Shown here piece by piece: positions 8,528 through 15,884 of a stretch of 41,167 nt of DNA. The translations under genes and the position numbers were made by a program. The DNA is from Thermoleophilaceae bacterium (lineage in GTDB: Bacteria; Actinomycetota; Thermoleophilia; Solirubrobacterales; Thermoleophilaceae). The stretch is taken from assembly GCA_016929195.1 (NCBI GenBank), contig JAFGJG010000162.1:1-41167 (forward strand), given 5' to 3'. The notes under the pieces are model-generated. The model saw only the letters and a list, made by a program, of their open reading frames with translations, was not told where the DNA came from and searched no databases. Each line of letters begins with the position of its first letter. Positions within the stretch are counted from its first letter, which is position 1.

Positions 8528-9646
8528 GTGAGCCGCTCCTCCCGCCTCCTGCTGGTCGTTCTCGCCGGGCTGGTGGCGGCGGTCCTCGCCGCGCCCGGCG
8601 GCGCCACCGCGAAGGTCGTCTGGCTCTGCAAGCCGGGCCTGAAGAGCAATCCCTGCGACCCGGGCCTCGGCACCACGTACTTCTCGCCGACCTCCAAGAG
8701 GCTGCGCGTCGGAAAGCCGAGGGCGGACAGGCCGCCGAAGGTCGATTGCTTCTACGTCTACCCGACGGTCAGCGATCAGAAGACGACGCTCGCGAACAAG
8801 CGCATCGACCCCGAGCTGCGCTCGATCGCGCTCTACCAGACGGCGCGCTACTCCCAGCACTGCCGCGTCTTCGCGCCGGTGTACCGGCAGGTGACGCTCG
8901 CCGGGCTGCTGGGCGGCGCGGAGGGCGGCGGCGAGCTCGACAGGAACGTCCCGTACAACGACGTGCGCGAGGCCTGGCGCACCTACCTGCGCAAGTACAA
9001 CAAGGGCCGCGGGGTCGTGCTCGTGAGCCACTTGCAGGGGACCTTCGTGCTGCGCCGGCTCGTGGCCGAGGAGATCGACAGGAAGCCGAAGGCCCGGCGC
9101 AGGCTGGTCTCGGCGATCCTGCTCGGCGGCAACGTCACCGTGAAGAAGGGCAGGGACCGCGGCGGGGACTTCAAGAAGGTGCGCGCCTGCCGCGCGAAGC
9201 GCCAGACCGGCTGCGTGATCGCCTTCTCGACCTTCAACGCCACGCCTCCGGAGGACGCGGTGTTCGGGCGCACCGGCGAGAAGGGGCTAGAGGTGCTCTG
9301 CACGAACCCGGCCGCGCTCGGCGGCGGCTCGGCGCCGATCACCCCGATCAGTCCGAGCGCCCCCTTCGCCCCCGGCACGACGATCGCGGCCGCGATCGGC
9401 ATCAGCGGTGTGGAGCTGCCGACCGCGAAGACGCCGTGGGTCGAGATCCCGAACGCCTACACGGCGCGCTGCTCGCCCGCCGGCGGCGCCGACGTGCTCC
9501 ACATCGCCGCGCGCAGGGGCGCGCCGGTGTACAGGCCGTCGCCGGACCCCACATGGGGCCTCCATCTGGTGGACGCCAACATCGCGCTCGGCAATCTGGT
9601 CTCGCTCGTCAAGACGCAGATCGCCGCGTACGAGTCGCGCCGCTAG
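8528..9646 (+). CDS. Secreted DUF3089-family alpha/beta-hydrolase-like protein, nucleophile Ser missing
   Basis: 372 residues with an N-terminal signal peptide (about 1-29). VDCFYVYPTVS near residue 75, YRQVTL and the NVPYNDVREAWRTYL helix are characteristic of DUF3089. The nucleophile elbow, normally GHSQG, reads SHLQG: residue 169 is Leu encoded by TTG (9032-9034), one base from TCG (Ser), and the preceding Gly is Ser. TTG is a rare Leu codon here. The reading frame is otherwise intact, including DVLHIA and WGLHLVDANIALG near the C-terminus. Either a catalytically dead paralogue or a point change. Its stop shares CTAG with the convergent padR stop. Confidence 0.85.
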   Translation: MSRSSRLLLVVLAGLVAAVLAAPGGATAKVVWLCKPGLKSNPCDPGLGTTYFSPTSKRLRVGKPRADRPPKVDCFYVYPTVSDQKTTLANKRIDPELRSIALYQTARYSQHCRVFAPVYRQVTLAGLLGGAEGGGELDRNVPYNDVREAWRTYLRKYNKGRGVVLVSHLQGTFVLRRLVAEEIDRKPKARRRLVSAILLGGNVTVKKGRDRGGDFKKVRACRAKRQTGCVIAFSTFNATPPEDAVFGRTGEKGLEVLCTNPAALGGGSAPITPISPSAPFAPGTTIAAAIGISGVELPTAKTPWVEIPNAYTARCSPAGGADVLHIAARRGAPVYRPSPDPTWGLHLVDANIALGNLVSLVKTQIAAYESRR

Positions 9647-10263
9647 TAGCCGCGAAGGCGGCCGCGGATGCGCGCGAGGGCTCGCCGCTCCTTGGCCGCG
9701 GACGGTGAGGTGTCGTCCCAGCGCTCCACCTCGGCGAGCGCGCCGTCGGCCCAGGCCCGCGTGAACAGCGCCCACCCGTAGAGGTAGTCGAACGTGAGCG
9801 CGCGCAGGTGCACCTCCTCCTGCTCTGGGTGGCGCCGCTCGAGGTACTCGTGGCCCAGCGGCGTGCCGACCGCGAGCATCGAGTCGGCCTGCTCGCGGGC
9901 CGCGGTGATCGCCCGCCTCAGCTCCGCGGGCGAGCCCTCGCGGCCGAGGAACACGCGCAGCAGCGGGCCGTGCTCGAGGGAGACGGGCTCGGCGGGCGTG
10001 CCGAGCCACCCGCGCAGCTCGCGCCTGCCCGCGGCGGTGATCGAATAGACCGTGCGCGGCCTGCGGCCGGTCCGTCCGCGCGTGGCCCGCGCGAGGCCCG
10101 CGTCCGCGAGCCGCTTGGCCTCGCTGTAAATGCGCGCCTCGGCCCGCGGCCAGAAGAAGCGCAGGTTGCGGCGCATGGCCTTGGTCAGCTCGTAGGTGGA
10201 GGCGTCGCCCCAGGCGAGCTGGCCGAGGATCGCATAGGAGGTGGTGGTGAGCTTATACTCCAA
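9643..10263 (-). CDS. PadR-family transcriptional regulator
   Basis: 206 residues. The N-terminal winged helix shows SYAILGQLAWGDASTYEL, FWPRAEARIYSEAKRLADAGL and RTVYSITAAGRREL, the standard PadR signature; the C-terminal half is the Vir_act_alpha_C-type dimerisation helix bundle. The start is TTG 10263, which places the first helix at the usual distance. The TTG lies inside a palindrome shared with the divergent SnoaL-like gene, which suggests autoregulation and control of that gene. PadR repressors typically respond to small aromatic or drug-like ligands; the ligand here is unknown. Confidence 0.9.
   Translation of the reverse strand: MEYKLTTTSYAILGQLAWGDASTYELTKAMRRNLRFFWPRAEARIYSEAKRLADAGLARATRGRTGRRPRTVYSITAAGRRELRGWLGTPAEPVSLEHGPLLRVFLGREGSPAELRRAITAAREQADSMLAVGTPLGHEYLERRHPEQEEVHLRALTFDYLYGWALFTRAWADGALAEVERWDDTSPSAAKERRALARIRGRLRGY
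10254..10259 (+). promoter_or_regulatory. -10 box TATACT for the SnoaL-like gene
   Basis: TATACT is close to the sigma-70 consensus and lies in the left arm of the palindrome. A transcript starting about 7 nt downstream would carry a leader of about 27 nt with the Shine-Dalgarno GGAGGGG before ATG 10294. On the opposite strand the mirror-image AATACT (10274-10269) ends 5 nt before the padR TTG. Confidence 0.55.
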
Positions 10264-10273
10264 ACGAGAGTAT
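10255..10273. promoter_or_regulatory. Palindromic operator candidate for PadR
   Basis: ATACTC (10255-10260), 7-nt spacer, GAGTAT (10268-10273): a perfect 6-bp inverted repeat. It covers the padR start codon and overlaps the -10 box of the divergent SnoaL gene. The size and position fit a dimeric winged-helix repressor; direct binding is inferred. Confidence 0.6.
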
Positions 10274-10293
10274 TCATCCTACCTGGAGGGGAG

Positions 10294-10707
10294 ATGGAGA
10301 ACGCGAACGCCACGCGCCTGGCCCAGGCGATCGAGGACTGGAACCGCGGCGACCTCGCCGCCTACCTCACGCTCTACGACGACGACGTGCGGCTGCACGG
10401 CTACTCGCCGGAGCCGATGGACAAGACGGCGGTCACCGGGTTCTACGAGCAGCACTTCCGGGCGTTCCCGGAGGGGAGGATCGAGCTGCTCCACACGTTC
10501 TGCGACGGGGACGACCTCGTCGCCCGCTTCGTGATGCGCGGCCGCCACGAGGGCGAGTTCCTGGGCGTGCCCGCCACCGGCCGCGACATCGCCCTCGACG
10601 GCATCACGATCATGCGCTTCCGCGACGGCCGCGTGGTGGAGCGCTGGTCGCAGGCGGACATGCTTGGCCTGCTCGTCCAGTTCGGGGCGGTGCCGGCACC
10701 GGCCTGA
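10294..10707 (+). CDS. SnoaL-like (NTF2-fold) polyketide-cyclase/ester-cyclase family protein
   Basis: 137 residues. AQAIEDWNRGDLAAYLTLYDDDVRLHGY, the helix VTGFYEQHFRAFPEGRIELLHTFCDGDDLVARFVMRG and GRVVERWSQADMLGLLVQFG are typical of the SnoaL-like branch of the NTF2 fold. A strong Shine-Dalgarno (GGAGGGG) precedes ATG 10294. It is divergent from padR and shares its operator, so it is the probable target of that repressor. The fold binds small hydrophobic molecules; the substrate is unknown. Confidence 0.88.
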   Translation: MENANATRLAQAIEDWNRGDLAAYLTLYDDDVRLHGYSPEPMDKTAVTGFYEQHFRAFPEGRIELLHTFCDGDDLVARFVMRGRHEGEFLGVPATGRDIALDGITIMRFRDGRVVERWSQADMLGLLVQFGAVPAPA

Positions 10708-10758
10708 CCGTTTCGTTGCACAGGCGTGGACGCGGTCCGCCCCGGGTACAACCAGGCT

Positions 10759-10793
10759 GCCGCCGGCGGTTCCGCCCCCACGACGCCGGCGGC
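10759..10793 (+). terminator. Bidirectional terminator between convergent genes
   Basis: GCCGCCGGCG (10759-10768) pairs perfectly with CGCCGGCGGC (10784-10793) around a 15-nt loop. On the plus strand it is followed by the pyrimidine-rich CTTCTTCGTTCT. It lies between the SnoaL gene (ends 10707) and the ATP-grasp gene (ends 10805, minus strand). Confidence 0.65.
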
Positions 10794-10804
10794 CTTCTTC
10801 GTTC

Positions 10805-12001
10805 TCAGTCGTGCAGCGCGGCCAGCGCGGCCGACTGATCGGCGGTCATGCCCTCGATCGGCTCACCGTCCCAGGAGACGTCCTCGTACATAGCCACCTG
10901 GAGCTTCTGGTGCTCGCGCAGGCTCAGGCGCTCGTGGTGGCAGAACGCGAGGAACGAGTAGAGGCTCGGCAGCTCGTCGTGCCAGCCGCGGTCCGCCCCG
11001 GGGATGTGGAGCAGGTCGTGGATCGTGCCGGGCACCTCGCGCAGGCCGTCCGAGAACATCGTCCCGATCACGGCCAGGTCGAGCTGGGTGATCCGGCCCG
11101 GCGGGACCATGAGGAGCTCCCGGTCCGGATCGAGCAGCGCGCCGGCCAGCTCGTCGGCCTCCATCAGCAGGACGCCGTCGGTGGTGCGCGGGTTGCACTC
11201 GATGATCACGAGGCCGTCCCCCGAGTCGACGAAGTCGAGCGACATCTGGCCCGTGTAGCCGAGCGCCTCACCCAGCCGCGTCACGACCGCGAGCGACTCG
11301 TCGCCGGCGATCGACTCGAACTGCACGGCGGTGCTGTGGTGGTACTGGCGCGGCCCCCGGTAGGTGCAGTGTCCCGTGACGCGGCCGCCGTGGAGGGTGC
11401 TGTAGGTGCAGACCATCGGCCCGTCCACGAACTCCTGTACGAGCCAGGGCGCGTCGGGGGTGGGGTGCACGTCCGCCGGGCTGACGGCGCCGGCGAGCGG
11501 CCCGGTGTTCGTGAGCAGCGTGACGCCGCCGCGCGAGAACACGCCGCGGCCGAAGTAGCGCGGCCAGCGCGCCAGCGCTTCGCTCATCTCGTCGTCGCTG
11601 CGGACGGTCACGCCCTCGGGGGCGCGGATCCCGAGGTCCTCGACGAGGCGCTCGAAGGAGTGCTTGTCGTGCACGCGGGCGAGCGTTCCGAAGGGCGGCG
11701 TGTAGAGGCGCGCGACCTGCTCGAGCTGCTCGCGGTGGGTGGAGAGGTAGAACGCCTCCTCCCAGGTCGGGACGATCACGTCGACGTCGTGCTCGTCGCA
11801 GAACGCGGCGACCTGATCCACGAACCGCCCGGTCTCGGCCCGCGGCGAGGCGGTGACGACATGGGCGCTTACGTAGCGGGAGTGATTCCCGGGCGCCGCG
11901 GCGTAGGTGTCCGAGGAGAACACCTCGTGGCCCGCCTCGCGGAGCCGCCGCATGACGGCGAGGGCGAACGGCATGCGGGCGCTCGTGACCAGGACCCTCA
12001 C
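10805..12001 (-). CDS. ATP-grasp enzyme (carbamoyl-phosphate-synthase-like ligase)
   Basis: 398 residues from GTG 12001. The N-terminal RVLVTSARMPFALAVMRRL with an HEVFSSDTYAAAPG loop is a pre-ATP-grasp Rossmann-like domain. VIVPTWEEAFYLS, DKHSFERLVEDLGI and the C-terminal FVDSGDGLVIIECNPRTTDG (metal-binding Glu/Asn) mark the ATP-grasp core. It should ligate a carboxylate to an amine or thiol via an acyl-phosphate; the substrate is not identifiable. The gene lies 17 nt behind a phosphodiester-glycosidase-family gene, so the two are probably functionally linked. A TACGTT box 6 nt before the GTG supports this start. Confidence 0.85.
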   Translation of the reverse strand: MRVLVTSARMPFALAVMRRLREAGHEVFSSDTYAAAPGNHSRYVSAHVVTASPRAETGRFVDQVAAFCDEHDVDVIVPTWEEAFYLSTHREQLEQVARLYTPPFGTLARVHDKHSFERLVEDLGIRAPEGVTVRSDDEMSEALARWPRYFGRGVFSRGGVTLLTNTGPLAGAVSPADVHPTPDAPWLVQEFVDGPMVCTYSTLHGGRVTGHCTYRGPRQYHHSTAVQFESIAGDESLAVVTRLGEALGYTGQMSLDFVDSGDGLVIIECNPRTTDGVLLMEADELAGALLDPDRELLMVPPGRITQLDLAVIGTMFSDGLREVPGTIHDLLHIPGADRGWHDELPSLYSFLAFCHHERLSLREHQKLQVAMYEDVSWDGEPIEGMTADQSAALAALHD

Positions 12002-12007
12002 GGGCGG

Positions 12008-12013
12008 AACGTA
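12008..12013 (-). promoter_or_regulatory. -10 box TACGTT upstream of the ATP-grasp gene
   Basis: On the minus strand TACGTT ends 6 nt before GTG 12001, inside the 17-nt gap after the preceding gene. It fits a leaderless internal promoter. Confidence 0.4.
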
Positions 12014-12018
12014 TCGCG

Positions 12019-12756
12019 TCAGGCCGGCTCGAACAGGAGCGCGGTCACCACGGGGCGCGACTCCGGCGCCGGCTGGTCGACGCTCGAGTAGGGGCGGTTC
12101 AGCAGGTGGCCGTGATGAACGAGCGTTGCGGAGCCGCCGCCGTCGAGGTTGATGGCCTCGCCGGCGCCGAAGGTGATCAGGAGCCGCGCGAGCTCGGCCA
12201 GGTCGAGGCCGGCGTCCACGCCGGTCCGGCGGCCGTCGCAGCAGACCGCGAGGATCTCGGTCTCGCTGAGGCCGAGCGCGCAGCGCGGGTGGCGCTCGGC
12301 GGTGATGTCGGAGTCGAACTGGGCGGCGCCGGCGGAGAAGCCCTCCCGGTCCTCGCCGTCGGCGACGGACCTGCCGCCGCTCACGAGCATCGGCCCGGCC
12401 GTGACGAGATCGCCGCGCGGGGCGTCGGACAGCTCGCCGCGCCGCGCCAGCCGCACGTCGCCGTCCACGTGGATCGCGGAGCGCAGCGGAGCCCACCGCG
12501 ATTCGACCGGCTCGGACGCGACGGGCTCGCCGCCGACCCAGACATCGCCGAGCGGGCGGTACGGGTCGCGCACGAAGAAGCCGGCCACGAGCGCCTCGGG
12601 ATGGCCGTGCTCGGCGCACCACACGTCGAGCCGCTGCGGCTCCGGAAAGGAGACGACGCGGACCCGCGTCGCCGCGCGCGGATGCCGGACTAGATAGACG
12701 GTGGTCTCCAGCCCATCCCGCAGCCGAGCGCGGGTGAGTTCGTATTCACCGGCCAG
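12019..12756 (-). CDS. Phosphodiester glycosidase (NAGPA-domain) protein; start codon non-canonical
   Basis: The frame shows FSAGAAQFDSDI, AVCCDGRRTG and the diagnostic INLDGGGSATLV of the phosphodiester glycosidase (NAGPA/COG4632) family. The first ATG/GTG/TTG in frame is GTG 12624, which would give 201 residues but cut away a credible N-terminal strand region: reading on upstream gives EYELTRARLRDGLETTVYL and then TRVRVVSFPEPQRLDVWC, without a stop. I therefore set the start tentatively at CTG 12756 (245 residues), three bases after the discriminator base of the adjoining tRNA gene. Enzymes of the family remove sugar-phosphate caps; the substrate here is unknown. Probably paired with the downstream ATP-grasp gene. 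Confidence 0.75.
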   Translation of the reverse strand: MAGEYELTRARLRDGLETTVYLVRHPRAATRVRVVSFPEPQRLDVWCAEHGHPEALVAGFFVRDPYRPLGDVWVGGEPVASEPVESRWAPLRSAIHVDGDVRLARRGELSDAPRGDLVTAGPMLVSGGRSVADGEDREGFSAGAAQFDSDITAERHPRCALGLSETEILAVCCDGRRTGVDAGLDLAELARLLITFGAGEAINLDGGGSATLVHHGHLLNRPYSSVDQPAPESRPVVTALLFEPA

Positions 12757-15458: not shown

Positions 15459-15884
15459 CTACGAGGCGGCCGCCTCCTGCGGGATAGCGCCGATCTGCTG
15501 CATCAGGCTCAGGTTGTCCGTCGTGCCCCAGTGCTCGGCCACGCGGCCGTCCTGGACCCGCACGATGTCGATCATCTCGAGCTCGACGCGGTTGCCGCTC
15601 GCCGGGACGCCCATCAGGTCGCCGGTCTGCGTGCCATGCATCGTCGCGCGCACGACGACGCGGTCGCCGCTCTCGATCACGTCGTCCATCGAGACCTGCA
15701 GGTCGGGGAACGCCTCGCGGAACGTCGTCACGAAGAAGCGGACGCCCTCGATTCCGTCCGGCGTGCCCGGCGGGCCCTCCTCGTGGTCCACGAAGTCGGC
15801 CGTGAGGATCTCGTCGAGCGCGCCGAGATCGCCACCGACCATCACGTCCTCGTAGAAGCGGCGGGCCAGATCCGCGTGGGACAT
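15459..15884 (-). CDS. SnoaL-like ester-cyclase-family protein
   Basis: 141 residues. ARRFYEDVMVGGDLGALDEILTADFVDHEE and TTFREAFPDLQVSMDDVIESGDRVVVRATMHGTQTGDLMGVPASG are classic SnoaL-like/ester cyclase signatures, with DGRVAEHWGTTDN at the end. ATG 15884 has a perfect Shine-Dalgarno (AGGAGGA). First gene of the SnoaL-VOC-SnoaL cluster. Proteins of this group often act on or bind polyketide-like or hydrophobic ligands; the function here is unknown. Confidence 0.9.
   Translation of the reverse strand: MSHADLARRFYEDVMVGGDLGALDEILTADFVDHEEGPPGTPDGIEGVRFFVTTFREAFPDLQVSMDDVIESGDRVVVRATMHGTQTGDLMGVPASGNRVELEMIDIVRVQDGRVAEHWGTTDNLSLMQQIGAIPQEAAAS

Follow-up and report, generated by a model that had tools for sequence, protein, structure and literature searches.

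The window (the whole 41,167-nt stretch of DNA analysed here) contains a perfect 19-bp palindrome at positions 10255-10273, which is predicted, from its sequence and from boxes of the same kind upstream of related padR genes, to be the operator of the PadR-family repressor encoded next to it. We propose, with a probability of roughly 0.8, that each ATACTC half-site would receive one of the two winged-helix domains of a PadR dimer, which would thereby cover both the padR start and the region holding the promoter of the divergent gene, SnoaL-like here, repressing both genes until a small molecule, presumably, frees it from the operator. The padR clade would keep this operator, while the divergent gene varies by organism and is SnoaL-like here. 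In this mechanism, binding, repression of both genes and release by a ligand are steps that we infer.

The palindrome has no strand of its own and consists of ATACTC (10255-10260), a CAAACGA spacer (10261-10267) and GAGTAT (10268-10273). The first-pass annotation had described it as perfectly symmetric with the padR TTG start codon between its arms, and both points hold, the codon occupying positions 10263-10261 of the reverse strand within the spacer. With spacers of 5-9 nt allowed, the pattern matches once in the 41-kb window and never in 100 dinucleotide-preserving shuffles, and the exact palindrome has one copy in the whole 3.46-Mb genome. At two or fewer mismatches there are 6 places in this genome versus 5 for a reversed control pattern, so that no further genomic site stands out; a two-mismatch relative of the window site in the same genome, AAAATCTAAGCGAGAGTAT at G000:C170:21750-21768, is at the level of the control count. 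A sample of 396 genomes from the phylum has the exact pattern at 16 sites (reversed control, 10), four of which lie beside such a padR, the window's own included, and 12 elsewhere. The short pattern therefore proves little by itself, and on these counts the exact palindrome was rejected as a genome-wide marker.

The padR gene (9643-10263, reverse strand) encodes 206 aa, and was called from PF03551, a start offset shared with relatives, the predicted model and fold matches. Its start codon (TTG, 10261-10263) is placed by the sequence and by alignment: it yields M-E-Y-K-LTTTSY, at an offset that matches ATG-starting relatives (e.g., L131 and L133). A winged-helix domain is recognised by PF03551 (E 2.4e-9; 37.5 bits, curated cut-off 27), and PF10400 falls under its cut-off (20.6 versus 22.4 bits). 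The model, which was predicted without DNA, has a mean pLDDT of 89.5 and contains a multi-helix C-terminal domain (helices 99-105, 112-141, 148-179 and 189-205); its closest whole-chain structural match is M. tuberculosis Rv1176c (8ioi, TM 0.70). Across 17 aligned PadR sequences, the signature tyrosine Y24 is invariant and Y46 nearly so. An inverted repeat is present at the gene's own promoter, as judged on sequence only. Its half-site is ATACT and not ATGT/ACAT, which we do not take as defining PadR proteins because cdPadR1 uses TACT/AGTA according to the accessible text of PMC5050560. By sequence and model, the window protein classes as a PadR-family repressor of the larger subfamily (about 180-200 aa).

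Relatives of this padR clade were gathered by protein alone, never by DNA. A single-protein scan of genome contigs with the window PadR gave no relative; a class-level genome search found relatives in 4 of 399 genomes (E <= 1e-22), and a phylum-level search in 20 of 396, the phylum-wide relatives being 34-43% identical and mostly near full length. Among 121 genomes, including its own, the top-scoring PadR other than the window's (G109) has 42% identity, and scores are lower for the PadR proteins of the genus's two other genomes. Aligned with eight phylum relatives and used as a query, the window PadR gave 51 loci. After removal of the window, six duplicates and one locus whose match stops short of the padR start (L139), the clade set holds 65 non-redundant loci, with padR starts extrapolated from the alignment; clade loci include Actinomycetota, Chloroflexota (Dehalococcoidia), Mesorhizobium and Aquibium.

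Between -110 and +20 of padR, TACTC-N7-GAGTA is found in 26 of the 65 loci with no mismatch, in 43 with at most one and in 59 with at most two. For either of two control stretches (-450 to -320 and +300 to +430), the corresponding numbers are 0, 0 and 1 of 65, and simple shuffles average 0.02, 0.22 and 2.22. Two or more boxes are present in 29 relatives (at most one mismatch) and one in the window; six relatives have no box even at two mismatches. In one case (L135) the box, ATACTCGCGTTTGGAGTAT, differs from that of the window, ATACTCTCGTTTGGAGTAT, at a single base among 19 bp, and the two PadR proteins are 42% identical. The window box spans padR -10 to +9, overlapping the start codon, whereas the nearest box is entirely upstream of the extrapolated start in the 59 clade loci. 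A chance palindrome in promoter DNA without a regulator, which could draw on the shortness of the six-base arms and on the 12 exact sites away from such a padR, is the least credible reading that we considered, since 43 of 65 loci carry the box versus 0 of 65 in either control stretch. The comparison shows instead that the predicted operator goes with the padR clade and not with SnoaL. The first-pass annotation had staked its proposal on conservation of the palindrome at orthologous padR/SnoaL pairs; the box is indeed kept with the padR clade, but tblastn found no such pair elsewhere, so that this condition does not apply in the form given.

Divergent ORFs were assigned mechanically as the longest ORF starting within 300 nt, a rule that can be expected to give some wrong frames and gives no ORF for L172. 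For the 65 ORFs considered (window included), matches at E <= 1e-5 among the best 25 of 53 families comprise 18 to methyltransferase families, 8 to Pyr_redox_3 (flavin monooxygenase-like), 5 to MDMPI_N, 3 to FAD_binding_4, 2 to alpha/beta hydrolase and 2 to glyoxalase; many ORFs have no match among the families listed. Sulfatase, nitronate monooxygenase, acyl-CoA dehydrogenase, esterase and SnoaL are each represented once at E <= 1e-14, a threshold at which all matches are listed, and the one SnoaL in 65 is the window's own. Searched by tblastn against 34 padR loci, the window SnoaL protein has, besides itself, one weak divergent relative (L027; 31%, E 5.6e-5), and none was found in 80 further order-level padR loci (E 0.01) or in the clade padR loci (E 0.01; also E 0.001). 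L027 (G026:C53) encodes a PadR of another class, and an imperfect ACATATC-N5-GATATAT lies between its padR and the weakly SnoaL-like gene; this is perhaps the window's layout assembled a second time. The divergent-gene theme of small-molecule enzymes fits PadR control of detoxifying enzymes or efflux pumps, which PadR proteins are said to upregulate in the accessible text of PMC6457526. The ligand induction and possible toxic small molecule of the first-pass annotation would likewise fit the statements on PadR proteins made there.

The clade also suggests how the operator may act on the divergent gene. Among 59 box-bearing relatives, 22 have the box within the 16-18 nt spacer of a TTGACA-like/TAnnnT pair facing that gene (TTGACA matched at 5 of 6 positions or better; shuffles without the box demand averaged 0.7), and a dimer bound between -35 and -10 in this manner should exclude RNA polymerase. 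The window reads AGCTTA where the relatives have TTGACA, and when 9550-10850 was scanned for sigma-70-type promoters, neither strand gave a promoter-like site. Two -10 boxes had been proposed in the first-pass annotation, TATACT for the SnoaL-like gene (10254-10259, forward strand) and AATACT for padR (10274-10269, reverse strand). Both exist as sequence matches and overlap the arms, but they have no -35 support, and because the window has neither the TTGACA promoter nor the frequent second box, they are unproven as promoter elements. The associated idea that one dimer blocks both promoters survives in part. An auto-operator between divergent genes is strongly supported by the clade counts (43/65 relatives versus 0/65 controls), and one PadR operator in this position means that one bound dimer could repress both genes; the placement over two -10 boxes is not supported, the relatives suggesting a box between -35 and -10.

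PadR might alternatively bind the palindrome and control its own gene only, the SnoaL-like gene having arrived opposite it by rearrangement with an unregulated promoter of its own. The overlap of the box with the padR start codon would suit such an arrangement, as would the absence from the window of the promoter-like pair that brackets the box in relatives, and no second pairing of this padR clade with SnoaL was found. We nevertheless consider it unlikely: the start codons are 30 bp apart, which leaves the SnoaL promoter no place except across the box or inside padR, and the recognisable divergent ORFs of the relatives are mostly enzymes, which suggests functional pairing. Under the preferred reading of dual control, autoregulation would be the firmer claim, and repression of the SnoaL-like gene is less certain because of the single box, its overlap with the start codon and the lack of TTGACA in the window.

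The SnoaL-like gene (10294-10707, forward strand) encodes 137 aa, with a GGAGG-type ribosome-binding site seen by eye upstream of its ATG. Its product matches PF07366 far above the curated cut-off (E 2e-28; 99.2 versus 28.4 bits), and from this family it would have an NTF2-type fold; solved relatives include 8ysb and 2gey. NCBIfam models for ketosteroid isomerase-related and SnoaL/DnrD cyclase proteins score under their cut-offs. Relatives of the protein at E <= 1e-5 are present in 85 of 121 genomes (own included); among the matches listed, the longer ones reach 42% identity, and two short ones have 49 and 54%. The window contains a second SnoaL-like gene (15474-15833, reverse strand), 36% identical to the first and adjoining a stretch that by eye resembles the end of a glyoxalase/VOC gene. 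Downstream of the first SnoaL-like gene, on the opposite strand, is a 415-aa ORF (10805-12052, reverse strand) whose sole match is a sub-threshold PylC-like N-terminal one.

The 19-bp length of the box is shared with other PadR classes. ATATATC-N5-GATATAT has 16 occurrences in 121 genomes (reversed control, 0), all 16 of which are beside a padR match by coordinates. In several loci of this class (L007, L012, L031 and L059), the palindrome extends into the padR start codon, and start-overlapping operators are thus not unique to the window. More distant PadR classes of the same order have different palindromes of the same length. An AT-rich perfect 19-bp repeat is found near the padR start in 21 of 110 order-level loci (window included) and in none of either of two control stretches; when the demand for AT is removed, perfect 19-bp repeats are near the start in 23 of 110, versus 11 and 1 in the control stretches. 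In a pooled set, boxes were called by a rule blind to the protein; L003 (window) was dropped from the order-level set, and two rows from the pool, L005 as a repeat of the window and L006 as a member of the clade set. Such boxes were obtained in 92 of 174 PadR loci (window included) versus 1 of 173 in a control stretch, and four other control stretches gave 0, 1, 2 and 0.

Differences between the half-sites follow differences between the proteins. When 90 protein columns were scanned over 59 clade box loci (window included), residue 43 ranked top for arm base 6 (z 32.8, next 4.7) and residue 44 top for base 8 (z 10.8, next 6.9), although all z-scores in these scans are inflated by relatedness. 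Six of six R43 proteins have G6, and 53 of 53 others have C6. The idea concerning residue 43 had been formed by eye before the scan. In the 92 pooled boxes, S43 goes with C6 in 44 cases and with T6 in one (L026), A43 with C6 (2), G43 with T6 (31), T43 with T6 (5) or A6 (3), R43 with G6 (5) and I43 with T6 (1). Base 8 is C in 21 of 22 K44 proteins and G in 7 of 7 with V44 and 5 of 5 with T44, and is mixed for Q44, R44 and A44. Residue 42 is associated with bases 4 and 5: Y42 has T4 (28/29) and A5 (29/29), E42 has C4 and T5 (21/21), and H42 has G4 and T5 (9/9). Base 7 is C in 86 of the 92 boxes; TA at bases 2-3 is not counted as a finding because it is partly built into the box rule. Six box-calling thresholds all leave the residue-43 pattern in place with few exceptions; the loosest makes 6 calls in 173 control stretches. 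In the pooled scan for base 6, column 43 is first by excess mutual information and second by z, after column 26.

Residues 42-44 directly precede helix 45-54, the recognition helix in the model predicted without DNA, and are near the second signature tyrosine, Y46, with residue 43 three positions before it. In the window, the codons for residues 43-46 (A43, R44, I45 and Y46), at the N-terminal edge of this helix, are at 10126-10137 of the reverse strand, counted from the TTG start. A tree built without columns 36-50 has 9 changes at residue 43 and 7 at base 6. The R43/G6 combination gives two independent pairs on well-supported branches (2/2 concordant) and three on all branches. The other pair tests, on well-supported branches, are concordant in 3 of 4 for S/A43 with C6 (one without difference), and on average in 0.7 of 3 for G/T43 with T6 (the rest without difference), 1.7 of 2 for K44/C8, 1.4 of 2 for V/T/S/M44 with G8, 0.5 of 1 for Y42/A5 and 0.9 of 1 for H42/G4. 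On average none ran in the opposite direction, apart from a few random pairings for residue 42, but the independent switches are too few for significance and no pair test can reach 0.05. As an independent test set, a second phylum search gave 20 places, all of them already known, and there were none in plasmids (E <= 1e-15) or in viral contigs. We regard the tracking of arm base 6 by residue 43, and in part of base 8 by residue 44, as a candidate recognition code. To its full form we give even odds: on a shared 19-bp frame with C7, residue 43 would set base 6 (S or A giving C, G giving T, R giving G, and T giving T or A), residue 44, where it is K or V/T, would set base 8 (C or G, respectively), and bases 4-5 would go with residue 42 (TA for Y, CT for E, GT for H). 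Clades would retain the frame and have their half-sites reprogrammed, and the divergent gene would be exchanged independently of this.

This dependence on residues near the recognition helix is not what would be predicted if the palindrome worked as a small RNA hairpin, either within the SnoaL leader or covering the start of padR, and neither is the occurrence in relatives of one or more boxes at varied distances upstream of padR. The palindrome would be in the leader if the SnoaL transcript begins upstream of it, and the padR start codon would be in the loop; we judge a hairpin very improbable. As the PadR operator that we prefer, the site itself would be an ordinary one, unusual in overlapping a start codon. 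Its wider use lies in an operator that is constant with a repressor clade across phyla as the adjacent gene changes, and in a testable code for a large repressor family. Such a code, if true, would predict the operators of uncharacterised PadR proteins and permit them to be swapped, which would aid the assignment of targets and the building of small-molecule sensors. A search of the open-licence literature returned no PadR-wide recognition analysis and no PadR/SnoaL study, which does not establish their absence from print; likewise, neither the code nor an operator kept clade-wide beside changing partners was met in that literature, though both may still have been published.

Among known systems, B. 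subtilis PadR targets a phenolic acid decarboxylase gene. Its structure with operator DNA (5x11) is related to the window PadR by sequence (E 4.3e-10) and by Foldseek (E 5.5e-7), and whole-chain superposition is poor (TM 0.41, rmsd 18.9). Its signature tyrosines, Y20 and Y42 in the accessible text of PMC6457526, align with Y24 and Y46 of the window protein, and its operator, given as CATGTAAATAGTTACATG in the available part of PMC10443031, differs from the window site. The canonical PadR/LmrR operators, ATGT-N8/10-ACAT as excerpted from PMC3506622 and PMC5428041, are also inverted repeats bound by PadR-type repressors, but differ from the window site in half-site (ATGT versus ATACT) and in spacing. 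Snowprint predicts operators by the same logic, from an inverted repeat conserved in the DNA that separates a regulator from a divergent gene; it is a general tool, and in the accessible text of PMC10858194 PadR is found only inside the "Other" group of its benchmark. The closest known operator to the window's TACT-N9-AGTA, as far as the accessible sources extend, is that of C. difficile cdPadR1, which EMSA shows to bind TACT(N11-12)AGTA in the promoter of its own gene (PMC5050560). According to the available portion of that paper, cdPadR1 is likewise a PadR-family protein with TACT/AGTA inverted repeats in its own promoter, two sets of them, in a placement consistent with autoregulation. The same text has cdPadR1 requiring an AT-rich spacer, assigns it to the small PadR-s2 subfamily, in contrast to the window protein with its larger C-terminal domain, and describes no divergent gene, where the window padR has a SnoaL-like one; the spacing between TACT and AGTA is N11-12 in cdPadR1 and N9 in the window.
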